DNA from: Candidatus Gastranaerophilales bacterium
GTDB lineage: Bacteria; Cyanobacteriota; Vampirovibrionia; Gastranaerophilales; Gastranaerophilaceae
Direction: 5' to 3'
NCBI GenBank assembly: GCA_944325635.1
Contig: CALVBD010000003.1
Location: 62,001-126,000 of the forward strand
Length of the DNA stretch: 64,000 bases
How positions within the stretch are numbered: the first letter of the stretch is position 1; every line of letters begins with the position of its first letter. Made by a program: the position numbers and the translations under genes. Below, one piece after another: positions 3,629-59,597 of this stretch. The notes beneath the pieces are model-generated. The model saw only the letters and a program-made list of their open reading frames with translations, had not been told where the DNA came from and searched no databases.

Positions 3629-4120
3629 TAAAGCAGCCCGTAAGCCGTGTTCTGTTTTAGATAATCATCTGTCTGGTATTGTGATTACTCACAATCTCAA
3701 GCGATTTTTTAGAAGTGGGCGGACAACCTTTATAACCTTCCATTTAATCTTGCATCCGATCGGGGTTTACCTGGCCAATATTTCTCAATATTGCCGGTGA
3801 AGCTCTTAACTCACCGTTGCACCCTCGCCTGTGATATAAAATCCATCGGCAGTCTCACGTCTTTGCTTTTTTAGCCGCCTGTGCAATCCGTTATCGGATT
3901 GCTTCGTTCCTTCCGCATTCGCTTCTGTCACAACGGCGGCATCGTAGTGTTCGTGCCTGCCCGTCTTGCTCCCGCAAGCCGGCACCGCACTCACACCGGC
4001 TGACGCATTCATTTCTGTGGCACTATCCACCGGCTCACGCCGTCCGGGCTTTCCCCGGCGATCTGTCCTTGGATGCACGGACTTTCCTCACATTTTCATG
4101 CGCGATTATCCGGCTGCTTT
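3629..4120 (-). ncRNA. rnpB: RNase P RNA (catalytic RNA of tRNA 5' processing)
   Basis: Read on the minus strand, the 5' region contains the universal GAGGAAAGTCC core and the 3' region contains the AGAACACGGCTTACGGGC block. The two ends pair as helix P1: AAAGCAGCC at 4112-4120 with GGCTGCTTT near 3630. Between them lie the conserved AGGGTGCAACGGTGAGTT segment and the GGGGTAAACC-like segment. Length is about 490 nt, at the long side for a bacterial A-type RNA; the middle (about 3855-3990) is G+C-rich and probably an extended P12-like arm. Ends are set from P1 pairing and may be off by a few bases. Reading frames here are not genes. Confidence 0.93.
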
Positions 4121-4212: not shown

Positions 4213-4340
4213 CGTCATTCCGGAAGCTTAGAAAAACTAATTGAGACGGATGGCGAAATTGAGTTTTTCAAGCTATGCGGAATCGCATTCTCGTTGAATG
4301 TAACTATAATGCGATCCCGGGTCGGAGCCCTGGATGACGT
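4213..4340 (+). repeat. dispersed palindromic repeat, family A copy 1
   Basis: A roughly 128-bp unit begins CGTCATTCCGGAAGC and ends TGGATGACGT, with inner blocks TTTTTCAAGCTATGCGG and ATGCGATCCCGGGT. Two further copies are at 10437-10564 and, inverted, at 46906-47033. The ends are complementary (CGTCAT and ATGACG), so the unit can fold into a long hairpin. It is non-coding. Confidence 0.8.
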
Positions 4341-10436: not shown

Positions 10437-10564
10437 CGTCATTCCGTAAGCGTAGAAAAACTGATTGAAGCGTATGCTGAAATCTTGTTTTTCAAGCTAT
10501 GCGGAATCGCATTCCCGTTGTATGTAACGACTATGCGATCCCGGGTCGTAGCCCGGGATGACGT
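10437..10564 (+). repeat. dispersed palindromic repeat, family A copy 2
   Basis: It shares CGTCATTCCG, GTAGAAAAACTGATTGA, TTTTTCAAGCTATGCGG, ATGCGATCCCGGGT and the closing GGGATGACGT with the copy at 4213-4340. The two are closely similar along the full length. Confidence 0.82.
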
Positions 10565-10915
10565 AATAAGCATCACATTGTCAATTTTTACGACAATGCG
10601 ATTGCGGGGCGTAGCCCGAAAGAATCCAGCTTTTGGAAAGGTGCAGGGTGAGGAGTGAATTTAGTTGAAAGGTTGAACGGGAGAAAGGATAAAGGGGGAT
10701 AGAAAACGGCTCCCTTTACGAAGGAGTACTATTACAACCCTCTCCCCTTGAGGGAGAGGGGGAAATTTGTTAATGAGCGTTAGCGAATTTACAAATTCGG
10801 GTGAGGGGTATGAGCAATTAAACCCTCCGGCGCTATTGCGCCACCTCCCTTGCAAATGGAGGCATTTCTCCAATCCCCCCTACTCCAACTTTGTAAAGGG
10901 TGGAAGAAAGAATTT
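10565..10915. repeat. mosaic of short dispersed repeats
   Basis: Non-coding. It contains GGGGCGTAGCCCGAAAGAATCC with CAGCTTTTGG (10596-10637), a CCCTCTCCCCTTGAGGGAGAGG hairpin (10739-10760), the unit GTTAATGAGCGTTAGCGAAT with TTACAAATTCGGGTGAGGG (10768-10807), and CCCTCCGGCGC / GCGCCACCTCCCTTG (10823-10855). All four recur elsewhere in the window. Confidence 0.78.
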
Positions 10916-38395: not shown

Positions 38396-38670
38396 ATTCA
38401 CCGGATTGTTTTGTTCGGCAGAGTGCAAATCCGCTTTACAAAGGGGGTCAAGTCAAAGCCTCCCTTGTAAAGGCGGATTGCAAGCAGAGGGCGGCGGCGT
38501 TGCAGACCCGTTTAACGCGAGCAACCAAGCAGGAGGTGGCGTAAGCACCGGAGGGTTTTCTCTTTTACCCCTCACCCACCCTTCGGGCACCCTCTCCCGC
38601 AAGGGGAGAGGGAATTTGATTTACCTCCCTTGTAAGGGAGGTGGCGCGAAGCGCCGGAGGGTTTTAAAGC
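38396..38670 (+). repeat. composite dispersed repeat, free copy
   Basis: It contains TCCCTTGTAAAGGCGGATT, GCAGACCCGTTTAACGCGAG, CAACCAAGCAGGAGGTGGCG and CCGGAGGGTTTT, then a second GTAAGGGAGGTGGCGCGAAG unit. The same composite, in the same order, is inside the cca gene at 55362-55529. No gene is seen in either strand. Confidence 0.8.
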
Positions 38671-46528: not shown

Positions 46529-47383
46529 TGAAGTATCTTAGTTGGGCAGGTATGCCCAACCTACTTAATGCCCCAGTGCCTTAGTATCTTAGTATCTTCT
46601 CTTGGCCTCCTCTCCCGCAAGGGGTATTGACCTCCCTTTATAAGGGAGGTGGTGCGGAAGCGCCGGAGGATTTTTCTCACACCCTCACCCGCCCTGCACG
46701 GACACCACTTCCAGAAGGCGAGGGGATGTGGCGTCATTGCGAGGCTTTAGCCGAAGCAATCCAGCTTTTGGATTGTTGTTGGGCAGGTATGCCCAACCGA
46801 CAAACTGCAAAATCCGTTGAGACGGAGTTGAAACGTAATTTTATGCCCCTACTGGTGACCCATAATCGCATAGCTGTTTTATAGTGTCATTAGAGTGATA
46901 ATTTTACGTCATCCCGGGCTACGACCCGGGATCGCATTGTCGCTGCGATTTACGGTAATGCGATTCCGCATAGCTTGAAAAACTGGATTTCGACAGAAGT
47001 CTCAATCAGTTTTTCTACGCTTCCGGAATGACGCACATGCTCTTAACCCCGCACCTCACCAATACCCCTCATCCGCCCTGCGGGCTACCTTAGAATTTTT
47101 TTTGGGCAAGTATGCCCAACCGACAGTGCCCCTCACCCGAATTTGTAAATTTGCTGACGCTCATTAACAAATTCCGCCCTCAGCACAAGGCATACAGGGT
47201 CACACGCTTCGCACAGCTCAGCGGTTCCCTTTGTATCCCGCAAGGGGCGAGGGTAGGAGTGTCATTGCGAGGCTTTAGCCGAAGCAATCCAGCCTTTTTT
47301 AATGAAGGGTGAAAGGGTGAGTAGTGAAGGATTCAATAACTATAAATCTCATCACTCTTTACTTATTTACCGCCCTATTGCCT
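46529..47383. repeat. large mosaic of dispersed repeats
   Basis: No gene is seen. It holds TTGGGCAGGTATGCCCAACC (46533, 46779 and, as a variant, 47102), CTTAGTATCTTAGTATCTT, CCTCCCTTTATAAGGGAGGT with GGAAGCGCCGGAGG (46631-46670), CATTGCGAGGCTTTAGCCGA with AGCAATCCAGC (46734 and 47261), a family A copy, and TTTGTAAATTTGCTGACGCT (47144). Confidence 0.8.
46906..47033 (-). repeat. dispersed palindromic repeat, family A copy 3
   Basis: Inverted copy of the units at 4213-4340 and 10437-10564: begins ACGTCATCCCGGG, then GATCGCATTG, ATTCCGCATAGCTTGAAAAA, and ends TTCTACGCTTCCGGAATGACG. Confidence 0.82.
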
Positions 47384-51767: not shown

Positions 51768-52332
51768 AAATTAGGAGTGTATGAAAAATCGAAAGAGGCA
51801 GTGGTGGAAATCCAGCCTTTTAAAAAGTGAATGGTGAGTAGTGAATAGTTCAACAGTAATTAGTCACTTCACACTTCACACATCATGTCTCACGTCCCCA
51901 AAAACTGGATTTTGTCGGGCTTTACACTTGACGTAAATTTTCCTTAGTACCTTAGTTGGGCAGGTATGCCCAACCTACTTAGTGCCTCAGTACCTAAGTG
52001 CCTTAGTATCTTAGTATCTTCTCTTTGTCCCCTGTCCCGCAAGGGGCGAGAGAATAGGATTTGCCTCCCTTTATAAGGGAGGTGGCGCGCTAGCGCCGGA
52101 GGGTTTTCTCTTTTACCCCCTCACCCCTGCCCCTCTCCCTCAAGTGGAGAGGGAATAGGATTGTGCGTCATTGGAGGCGTTAGCCGAAGCAATCCAGCCT
52201 TTTTGCTTCTCTTTGTAAGGTGGTATGTCTTAATGCACCCCACTTATTGCCCTAGATTTTTGTTGGGCAAGTATGCCCAACCTACTTAGCGCCTTAATAT
52301 CTTCTCTTTGTCCCCTCTCCATCCAGTCAAAA
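51768..52332. repeat. mosaic of dispersed repeats
   Basis: No gene is seen. It contains the hairpin-forming AGTGAATGGTGAGTAGTGAA / AGTCACTTCACACTTCACAC pair (51827-51884), TTGGGCAGGTATGCCCAACC (51956), repeated CTTAGTATCT/CTTAGTGC tracts (51980-52022), and CCTCCCTTTATAAGGGAGGT followed by GGCGCGCTAGCGCCGGAGGG (52064-52104). TTAGCCGAAGCAATCCAGCC (52180) and TTGGGCAAGTATGCCCAACC (52262) complete it. Confidence 0.8.
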
Positions 52333-53292: not shown

Positions 53293-54396
53293 ATGAAAAA
53301 GTTATTGATTGTATCTGCATTAATTATATTAGCATCATCTGCATACGGCGCAGAACAAAATGTCTGCACGAACAGAGAATTTACCAACGCAATAAAAAAG
53401 GGAAACATTGAATTTGTAAAAGAAAATGTCTCTAATTTAAAAGACATCAACGATGCATCATGTTTTTTATGCACTGCAGTAGAAAAAAAGCAGGATAAAG
53501 TTTTAGATGTTCTGCTTGAGGCAAAAGCTGATCCTGACTGTCCAAACTGTATGGTTTCACCTTTATATACCGCACTTGTATATAAAAACAACTACGCTGT
53601 TGAAAAGCTTTTATCCGCCGGCGCAAATCCGAATAACACACAAAATTTATCTTTAATTTACCTTGCAGTTGCTACCGATAATATATTTGCTACTGAAAAA
53701 CTTCTTGAAGCCGGTGCTGATGAAAATTCAACCTTTTTTAAAATAAGTGCTGTAAAACTTGCATTCTATACAGGCTCATTAGAAATGCAGGAGGCTTTTA
53801 TTGATTATTGGAACAAAAGATTTAAAACTCCGGCGACGGATATAAATGCAGCATTAAACGCATTGGCAACTCTAAAATCCGGCAATAAATATTATCAAAT
53901 CTTAACAGGGAATAACCCTGAACAAAAACCTTTCAAAATATATTTTTGTGATTTAACTAAAATAAATCCTGATTTGGAAGAAGGACAAATATCCTATGTT
54001 AATGTGTACAATTCAGAGCTAAAACAAAACATAATATACATAGATAATGCATACCGCAATATTCCCGTAGAAATTCTTGCAACAATTCTGGCAAGTGAAA
54101 GTATCAATACTGACGGAAAAATGTCTGTTATAGAACAACTGACAAGCTATGGAGTAATGGCTCAAGTCTGGCAGGAATTTACTGCGTTAAATCCAAAATT
54201 AACAGATGAATCAAATACTTTTGTGAAAGGTCTGAACGGTATGGTAAATATCTTAAATATGGATAACGCCAGATATTCAAAAGGTGATTACAACAATTTT
54301 TGGACACTGTCAGGACTTGCTAACAAACGTAAAATGACTTCAAAAGGATTCAGGAACAAAGATTTAAATACCTACTTTTTAACAGAAAAGAAATAA
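53293..54396 (+). CDS. exported ankyrin-repeat protein
   Basis: A 367-residue protein with a cleavable signal (MKKLLIVSALIILASSAYGA). Ankyrin repeats lie at about 25-150 (TAVEKKQDKVLDVLLEAKAD, TALVYKNNYAVEKLLSAGAN, LAVATDNIFATEKLLEAGAD). The C-terminal 200 residues are a different domain with GQISYVNVYNSEL and an envelope-type helical part. It is a likely periplasmic interaction protein. Its end overlaps the convergent cca gene by 25 bases. Confidence 0.82.
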   Translation: MKKLLIVSALIILASSAYGAEQNVCTNREFTNAIKKGNIEFVKENVSNLKDINDASCFLCTAVEKKQDKVLDVLLEAKADPDCPNCMVSPLYTALVYKNNYAVEKLLSAGANPNNTQNLSLIYLAVATDNIFATEKLLEAGADENSTFFKISAVKLAFYTGSLEMQEAFIDYWNKRFKTPATDINAALNALATLKSGNKYYQILTGNNPEQKPFKIYFCDLTKINPDLEEGQISYVNVYNSELKQNIIYIDNAYRNIPVEILATILASESINTDGKMSVIEQLTSYGVMAQVWQEFTALNPKLTDESNTFVKGLNGMVNILNMDNARYSKGDYNNFWTLSGLANKRKMTSKGFRNKDLNTYFLTEKK

Positions 54397-55664
54397 TCCC
54401 TCGCGATTTTTATCTCGTCATTCTTGCTTAAATCAGGATTTTTAAGTTTTTCTTTTAATACGTAATCAAATATTTCCTGATACTTCGGGGAGGGCGCAAT
54501 GCCTATTTCCTGCAAATCTTTTCCGTTAATTGAAATCTTTATTCCGCGGAGTTTGTCAAAATATCTCATTGCTGCCTTTTCGTCTTTTAGAATTGCATAG
54601 AGTATAACGGTTTCCGGCGGAACTTTTTCAAATGCCCTGTAGATTTCAAAATCGTTTTTGAGTTTTCCTATTGAATTGTAGTCGTCGAGGATTTTTTGTT
54701 CGGTTTTAGTAAGAGGAAGCCGCGACAAATCCCCGAGAACACCTGCATAGATAAGCCAGATATTGCTTATATTCCATTCCTGAACTTTGTTATCCTGAAC
54801 TTGTTTCAGGATCTTATTAATCAATTTTTCAATATTAACGCGCGGGAGTGAAACCTTTTTTTCTGTCACAAGTTTATAAATCCCGTCTTTTATAAATGTT
54901 TCAAAAGCGGCTTGCGAATTGAGATTAAAGGTTTCGATTAATTCTTTTTTTATGCGTTTATAACACATATCGTAATTGATATTTTTCAGGTAATCCTCCT
55001 GAAGCTTTTTAGTATGTTTATCAAGCTTGAAGCCGAAACGGACAGAGAATTTCAAAGCGCGGATAATTCTTGTCGGGTCATCAATAAAACTTTCGTCGTG
55101 GAGAACTCTTATTGTTTTATTTTTTAAATCTTCCAGCCCGCTTGTGAGGTCGACGATTTCACCGGTTGTGACAGATTTATAGAGAGAATTTATTGTAAAA
55201 TCGCGACGTTTAACATCATCTTTCAATGGACAGCCGATTTTTGTGACAGTCGGAAGATGACCTTTTCGTTCGTAAATTTCTTCACGGGTGGAGGCGATAT
55301 CAATTTCATGCCCGCCGATTCTAACCCGTACAGTTCCGAAAGGCTCGTTTATTTGAAGAATTTCAAATCCCTCCGGCGCATTAGCGCCACCTCCTGCTTG
55401 GTTACTCGCATTTAACGGGTCTGCACCGGCGCCGCCTGCGCCTCGCCGGTTCGCCCTCAGCTCGTAATCCGCCTTTACAAGGGAGGTTTTTATTTTACCC
55501 CCCTTGTAAAGGGGGGCAGGGGGGATTTCTAGATTTCCCGCAAATTCAATGGCATTCCCCTCATAAACCAAATCGGTATCAAGACTTTCAATTCCGAGTA
55601 ATTCGTCGCGAACCACTCCACCAACAAAATATAACTTATTATCCTTTATATTGATGATGTTCAT
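54372..55664 (-). CDS. cca: CCA-adding enzyme/poly(A) polymerase-family nucleotidyltransferase carrying an in-frame repeat
   Basis: Adds CCA to tRNA 3' ends; 430 residues. The active site has LYFVGGVVRDELLG, then TDLVYEG with catalytic acidic residues, and RRDFTINSLYKSVTTGEIVD, then RALKFSVRFGFKLDKHTKK. Residues about 46-101 are foreign: the enzyme text runs AIEFAGNLE, then IPPAPLYKGG through NAPEGFEI, and resumes LQINEPFGTVRV. This matches a dispersed intergenic repeat. The insertion lies in a loop between strands of the head domain, so activity may be kept. The C-terminal helical part is shorter than in some relatives. Confidence 0.85.
   Translation of the reverse strand: MNIINIKDNKLYFVGGVVRDELLGIESLDTDLVYEGNAIEFAGNLEIPPAPLYKGGKIKTSLVKADYELRANRRGAGGAGADPLNASNQAGGGANAPEGFEILQINEPFGTVRVRIGGHEIDIASTREEIYERKGHLPTVTKIGCPLKDDVKRRDFTINSLYKSVTTGEIVDLTSGLEDLKNKTIRVLHDESFIDDPTRIIRALKFSVRFGFKLDKHTKKLQEDYLKNINYDMCYKRIKKELIETFNLNSQAAFETFIKDGIYKLVTEKKVSLPRVNIEKLINKILKQVQDNKVQEWNISNIWLIYAGVLGDLSRLPLTKTEQKILDDYNSIGKLKNDFEIYRAFEKVPPETVILYAILKDEKAAMRYFDKLRGIKISINGKDLQEIGIAPSPKYQEIFDYVLKEKLKNPDLSKNDEIKIARDYFFSVKK
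55362..55529 (-). repeat. in-frame dispersed repeat inserted in cca
   Basis: On the minus strand it carries TCCCTTGTAAAGGCGGATTA, GCAGACCCGTTAAATGCGAG, TAACCAAGCAGGAGGTGGCG and GCGCCGGAGGG, in the same order as the intergenic copy at 38396-38670. Length is close to a multiple of three, so the frame survives. The encoded residues are low complexity (Gly, Ala and Asn rich). Confidence 0.85.
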
Positions 55665-59162: not shown

Positions 59163-59552
59163 GGGGACGTTTTGGATTAGACAGGATGTTTGGTTGAAAC
59201 AGGCTGCGAGTCCGTGCGCTGTTCACGGTTATCAACGAGCAAACCAAATTAAATGCTAACAATGTTGTAAAAGCAGACTTCTCTAGAGCTTATGCTTTAG
59301 CAGCGTAGTCGCTATTTAGCTACTTGTATTTCCCAGCTTGCCGGAGATATGAGTCCACGATGCAAGCGGCAGTACGTTGATGACGGTAGGCGTATCAAGA
59401 TAACCGTTAAAGGTTAGTGTTTCCGGAAAAAACACTTTGGATTATTTAAAAGGTTTTGATATTCCCTGAATAGTCCGAGAAAATTAATATCTACACCCGT
59501 AGAAGCTTGTTTAGATCCATTTTGGACGCGGGTTCGACTCCCGCCGTCTCCA
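59163..59552 (+). ncRNA. ssrA: transfer-messenger RNA (tmRNA)
   Basis: Rescues stalled ribosomes by trans-translation. The 5' end GGGGACG pairs with 3' CGTCTCC; the T arm GGGTTCGACTCCC is at the 3' end and CCA is not encoded. The tag frame starts at GCT (59255) and ends at TAG (59306-59308), giving ANNVVKADFSRAYALAA: the ALAA end marks proteins for proteolysis and the ANN start is like cyanobacterial tags. One-piece form, about 390 nt. Confidence 0.96.
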
Positions 59553-59597
59553 GTTTTTAGTCCACAAAAGGACAATAAGACCATTTTGAAAGCGTTG

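Follow-up and report, generated by a model that had tools for sequence, protein, structure and literature searches.

A dispersed palindromic repeat in frame within a Gastranaerophilales tRNA nucleotidyltransferase, at a loop that holds unrelated repeats in sister species

A loop in the head domain of a tRNA nucleotidyltransferase (Cca) holds an in-frame copy of a dispersed palindromic repeat, here called R1. Sequence comparison shows that in sister species unrelated repeats occupy the same cca loop; the pattern is seen again in RsmE and in Mfd, and we regard it as the new element of this work. We interpret, with a probability of about 0.9, R1 as a non-autonomous mobile repeat that inserted in frame in the Cca loop, which then became a landing pad for unrelated families. 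The stretch of DNA that was analysed, called the window below, comprises 64,000 nucleotides (G000:C3:62001-126000) of the 2.0-Mb genome G000 of a Candidatus Gastranaerophilales (“Melainabacteria”) bacterium, whose nearest named relatives are in Candidatus Scatousia. It is a gut bacterium and a non-photosynthetic relative of cyanobacteria. Twelve congeners (G001-G012) were compared at cca; the genomes of relatives are mostly metagenome-assembled. The features of the window on which the argument is built are as follows.

54372-55664, minus strand: class II tRNA nucleotidyltransferase gene (cca), 430 codons, with two repeat-derived inserts
55365-55528, minus strand: R1 palindromic element, long form, 164 bp, in frame, making up most of Cca residues 46-101
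55498-55516, minus strand: R1 left hairpin (CCCCCC TTTACAA GGGGGG), from the sequence, compared with genome copies
55375-55388, minus strand: R1 right hairpin (GGCGC TAAT GCGCC) with flanks GGAGGT / GGAGGG, from the sequence, compared with genome copies
54777-54812, minus strand: second in-frame cca insert, R3 type (CCTGAAACAAGTTCAGGAT), residues ILKQVQDNKVQE, lineage-specific
38431-38559, plus strand: intergenic R1, long form, 5' end truncated, 75% identity, E 2.6e-25 (blastn)
38567-38612, plus strand: intergenic R2 repeat (ACCCCTCACCC...CTCTCCCGCAAGGGGAGAGGG), the family in the cca loop of G005/G004/G009, with more stretches in the genome
38623-38665, plus strand: right half of a further R1 copy (CCTCCCTTGTAAGGGAGGTGGCGCGAAGCGCCGGAGGGTTTT), covered by most of the 46 places listed for the block query
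10820-10848, minus strand: intergenic R1 right end, 86% over 29 bp (blastn)
52078-52107, plus strand: intergenic R1 right end, 83% over 30 bp (blastn)

Head-domain motifs, fold and sequence family all fit the assignment of Cca to the class II tRNA nucleotidyltransferases. The PF01743 profile (PolyA_pol head domain) matches Cca with an E-value of 2e-25 in two aligned stretches flanking the R1 insert, the better of which begins at residue 105 (profile position 45), and the GGVVRD, DTD and RRDFT motifs are all intact; the claim of a preserved frame with enzyme motifs intact on both sides, made earlier from the sequence, was thus correct. The nearest solved structures by sequence are 1vfg/4wbz from Aquifex, with 3h37 from T. 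maritima also close, and the model fold matches the tRNA nucleotidyltransferases of both organisms (Foldseek: 3h38, E 7.5e-18; 4wc2, E 1.6e-17). We take the Aquifex enzyme (1vfg/4wbz) to be an A-adding one. G000 encodes another class II nucleotidyltransferase, a 478-aa paralogue (L243:1230-2663) whose gene adjoins that of RsmE, and CC and A addition may be split between the two proteins. With this paralogue present, Cca itself may add CCA, A or CC, so that the earlier label “CCA-adding enzyme” is right for the family. A relative was found in 58 of 59 genomes, in many of them free of any insert, and we assume from the family that Cca is essential in its host. Judging by the dN/dS of its core (0.085-0.124 among G000, G005 and G006, whose cores share 90-94% of their nucleotides), the gene is under purifying selection.

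A dispersed repeat had been proposed at 55362-55529 in cca, and its repeat nature was confirmed, with the element proper confined to 55365-55528. R1 ends in 10-bp inverted repeats (AAATCCCYCC / GGAGGGATTT), and its two hairpins bracket a core; the short form has 84 bp, and the long form, which includes an extra middle block, about 165 bp. The cca copy folds with a z-score of -5.5. When the 168-bp stretch 55362-55529 was used as a query against the genome, two near-full copies, at G000:C8:44927-45091 and G000:C2:154956-155118, were found in minus-strand matches to be 89% identical over 164/168 bases (E-values 1e-56 and 5e-56), a likeness that, as a sequence match, is far above chance. With some 42 partial copies, R1 occupies about 45 places in G000 altogether. 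The sequence-only reading had further matched the insert block for block to an intergenic composite at 38396-38670; this holds throughout the first block (R1, 38431-38559), while the rest consists of R2 followed by an R1 right half. The frame used in Cca is stop-free throughout an intergenic long copy as well (IPPTPLYKGGKVKASLVKADCEQRAKRRREGGGVADPFNASNQAGGGAHSAGGF), which means that R1 can enter a gene without bringing a stop. In the order R1 is patchy, with matches in 8 of 146 sampled genomes; on plasmids only half-length matches were seen (in one Deinococcus and one Vescimonas plasmid), and the phage search gave no match. The window also holds three composite repeats of about 130 bp with CGTCAT motifs (CGTCATTCCG... 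or its complement), at 4213-4340, 10437-10564 and 46903-47033.

At the cca loop, the inserted residues 46-101 are missing in 8 of the 12 (G002, G003, G012, G010, G011, G001, G008 and G007), which excludes a conserved native loop. G006 carries a shorter form of R1, and G005, G004 and G009 carry R2 at the same point (TPHPS...QGARE), with junctions so nearly identical in G005 and G004/G009 that these R2 copies probably go back to one event. Over all congeners there is more than a single insertion, the loop having been used repeatedly by unrelated repeats. With a support of only 43-51% around G002/G010, the cca tree is too weak there for insertions, losses and replacements to be counted. Nor is the loop the only occupied place in the gene: the smaller R3-type insert at 54777-54812 had been missed. 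It is also present in G005, absent in G002/G003/G012 and replaced in G006 by a CGTC-type repeat (SRHCGLDPQSQSCHND). The length of the cca loop varies across the order, and about 22 of 76 Gastranaerophilales cca loci, counted by reading the cca alignment output, have lineage-specific inserts of at least 8 residues at several positions, many of them recognisable repeats. The cca insert of L149, for instance, matches 7 places in the genome it comes from, 40 in the L116 genome and only 1-3 in the four other genomes searched. An intron or intein was set aside, as in relatives the loop simply has the insert, lacks it or holds a different repeat. In the AlphaFold model (mean pLDDT 87) only residues 51-96, which in the head domain are flanked by helix 38-44 and strand 100-106, have values below 50, and the rest is mostly confident; the R1-derived stretch is thus predicted to be a disordered surface loop.

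Further in-gene copies, for which a search had been suggested, were sought by targeted searches of G000, so the genes found are a minimum set. In-frame repeats are present in a TIGR03960 radical SAM protein, in Mfd (two), in LeuS and in RsmE. The radical SAM protein has R1 in the frame used by Cca, plus R2; Mfd has R1 in a different frame, plus R2. The RsmE loop holds R2 in G000/G005, reversed R1 in G006/G009 and a CGTC repeat in G010, and is empty in G002/G003/G012/G007. The second site of Mfd holds R1 in G000/G006, R2 in G005/G004/G001/G011 and R3+R2 in G010, and is empty in G002/G003/G012/G009/G007. At Cca, RsmE and Mfd, G000, G005 and G006 differ in the family of the repeat. The Mfd inserts of G000 (R1) and G005 (R2) have outer ends in common, with R1 lying inside them in G000, and this suggests that a resident insert was replaced from within. 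LeuS has a single family, R2, in G000/G006/G004/G001, and a native loop in the other genomes compared.

Several observations made along the way deserve mention. The LeuS stretch is 98% identical as protein between G000 and G004, compared with only 73% identity of their cca cores in DNA (L270, L272), which suggests that leuS was transferred or recombined. In prepilin-like genes (L062, L071, L077, L244:1682-2482), R1/R2-derived residues stand upstream of the prepilin motif FTLAEVLITLGIIGVVAAMT, possibly in a cleaved leader or merely upstream of the true start. The RNase P RNA (window 3824-4011, minus strand) is 497 nt long in G000 and 345-402 nt in six congeners. About 150 extra nt, 82-89% alike, are found in its P12 region in G000, G004 and G009, and G006 has a wholly different P12 insert of similar size at the same place. 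The tmRNA in the window (59163-59555) showed no evident large insert.

We propose the following scenario. R1 would spread in the genome in the manner of REP/BIME or MITE sequences, as a selfish, non-autonomous element presumably copied by transposition, and one copy would have entered, in frame, the head-domain loop of Cca between helix 38-44 and strand 100-106. It could persist there because its frame is stop-free, its unit length is nearly divisible by three and a long disordered peptide, itself presumably neutral, is tolerated in the loop. The occupied loop may then have become a harmless landing pad for repeats from other families (R1, R2, CGTC-type R3) that arrived later; by inserting into or replacing the resident one, these would give different peptides at the same place in sister species. 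Such replacement of repeat by repeat is what we infer at the loops, and relatives with different repeats in the same loop indicate that several families use conserved proteins as landing sites. We would go further only tentatively, with slightly less than even confidence, and regard the loops as true exchange sites, at which one resident repeat after another gives way, in frame, to an unrelated family through insertion or recombination. If this is the case, fast-changing, species-specific segments are carried by these enzymes and perhaps by RNase P RNA too.

As to the copying machinery, G000 has a REP-associated tyrosine transposase, L094, which scores 130.5 bits with NF047646 (cut-off 80). 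Mobilisation of R1 by such an enzyme was considered and dropped, as L094 is accompanied by a GTAG-kind repeat, GTAGGTTGGGGTTTCTACCCCAAC, unlike R1, and the R1-rich G011 (13 R1 matches) gave no Y1 transposase match. No clear target-site duplication was seen at the cca junctions; short direct repeats are present at the edges, and these are ambiguous since the R1 ends resemble them. The transposase genes show a peculiarity of their own. In five genomes (four in f1, namely G000, G006, G008 and G013, plus G015) they contain a perfect copy of a GTAG hairpin repeat in frame (L094:450-473, L091:1618-1641, L092:1312-1335, L093:1618-1641, L095:1582-1605), at a corresponding place in all five, after SKN/SRN residues. 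The internal copy has the same sequence as the outside copy near that gene, and this sequence varies between species. The outgroup genes L096 and L098 are free of an internal repeat and lie between inverted copies, one on each outer side, and the L100 gene is cut at the internal-repeat point.

Other explanations of the Cca insert have to be weighed against this scenario. One might suppose a native variable loop that drifted and came to resemble the repeat by chance, as differing loop lengths across the order could suggest. However, 89% DNA identity over 164 bp to two copies (E 1e-56) speaks against such an accident and the loop is empty in 8 congeners; dispersed copies together with empty sites already refute this idea, to which we attach practically no weight. 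It is also very improbable that the different repeats at one loop are a single old insert diverged past recognition, as has been allowed for RPE-4/6/7 in Rickettsia. The near-identical R2 junctions of G005 and G004/G009 do point to one event for those copies, and the outer ends shared by R1 and R2 in Mfd to modification of a resident insert; yet R1, R2 and the CGTC repeats each form a multi-copy family of their own, and relatives with 90-94% of their cca nucleotides in common hold entirely different ones.

The remaining explanations concern what the insert does to the protein. If the gene were decaying, with the 478-aa paralogue doing the work of a damaged Cca, the presence of that second enzyme and of large inserts at several places would make sense, but a core dN/dS of 0.09-0.12, the intact GGVVRD, DTD and RRDFT motifs and the occurrence of a relative in 58 of 59 genomes, many insert-free, do not fit, and we find this a shade less credible than the single diverged insert. 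Selection of the inserted peptides for a function (regulation, binding or tRNA discrimination), with adaptive changes of family, is likewise unlikely, though less remote than either. Several carriers are tRNA, rRNA or repair enzymes, and the REP survey notes many repair and tRNA genes as targets in other bacteria (PMC3733652); on the other hand, the insert is predicted to be disordered, and the occurrence of unrelated sequences in different frames in one loop argues against a single peptide function. Insertion of R1 as a mobile repeat remains our preferred reading, and it makes these proteins a natural data set on the amount of foreign peptide that conserved enzymes tolerate.

Palindromic repeats within genes are well known from Rickettsia and Wolbachia and from many bacteria that carry REPs (PMC3767692, PMC2229807, PMC10969869, PMC3733652). 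The earlier reading called such in-protein repeats not commonly described in this bacterial group; they have been described well beyond Rickettsia (PMC3733652), though our literature search on repeats in Gastranaerophilales or Melainabacteria found nothing relevant. Among mobile elements with open frames fused to genes, ERIC and YPAL/RU-2 are short, non-autonomous MITEs with inverted repeats, RU-2 having about 168 bp and a 56-residue frame (PMC2229807). R1 likewise has terminal inverted repeats (AAATCCCYCC) at both ends, but these span only 10 bp, less than the 15-30 bp that PMC3733652 states for MITEs. R1 is likened to ERIC and YPAL/RU-2 by description; its ambiguous junctions gave no clear target-site duplication, and no TA terminus was seen. 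A second comparison is with the intragenic GTAG- or CGTC-tagged REPs, which the REP survey reports from many species as inserts of 20-82 residues, in genes for DNA repair, in tRNA genes and in others; the recB genes of two Xanthomonas have them at roughly one position (PMC3733652). In resemblance to these, the R3-type inserts in Cca of G006 and RsmE of G010 contain CGTCATTGCGGG, and R3-type copies carry the CGTC tag. R1 and R2, in contrast, have no GTAG or CGTC at the 5' foot of the hairpin; 3' of the left hairpin, intergenic R1 copies read GGGGGGTAGGGGGG and the cca copy GCAG, and R2 has no tag of this sort. Unlike a GTAG-type REP, R1 does not flank the RAYT gene, as L094 has another repeat.

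The closest parallel is with the Rickettsia palindromic elements RPE-1 to RPE-7, dispersed palindromes of 100-150 bp with an open frame that lie in frame in housekeeping genes, and of which different groups (RPE-4/6/7) can occupy the same locus in orthologues (PMC3767692, PMC2229807, PMC10969869); they are also reported in RNA genes, including that of RNase P RNA (PMC2229807). R1 is similarly a palindromic multi-copy repeat (forms of 84 and about 165 bp, some 45 places, a fold z-score of -5.5), and R1 and R2 are in frame in known genes (R1 in Cca, the radical SAM protein and Mfd; R2 in LeuS and RsmE) and absent in relatives. The likeness noticed originally, a dispersed repeat inserted in a gene with the frame kept, was upheld. 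The host, however, belongs to an unrelated lineage, Gastranaerophilales and not Rickettsiales (Rickettsia, Wolbachia), so by its described features R1 would work like an RPE but is not filed as one. For R. japonica, RPEs of different groups were reported from a single locus, and the authors could not tell a hotspot from one diverged insert (PMC3767692, PMC2229807, PMC10969869). Here, empty, filled and alternately filled loops in close genomes make this question directly testable, and the plainly unrelated families at one loop favour the hotspot reading in this lineage. RPE-like mobile repeats in proteins would thereby have a place in an uncultured lineage that is common in the gut and distant from Rickettsia.
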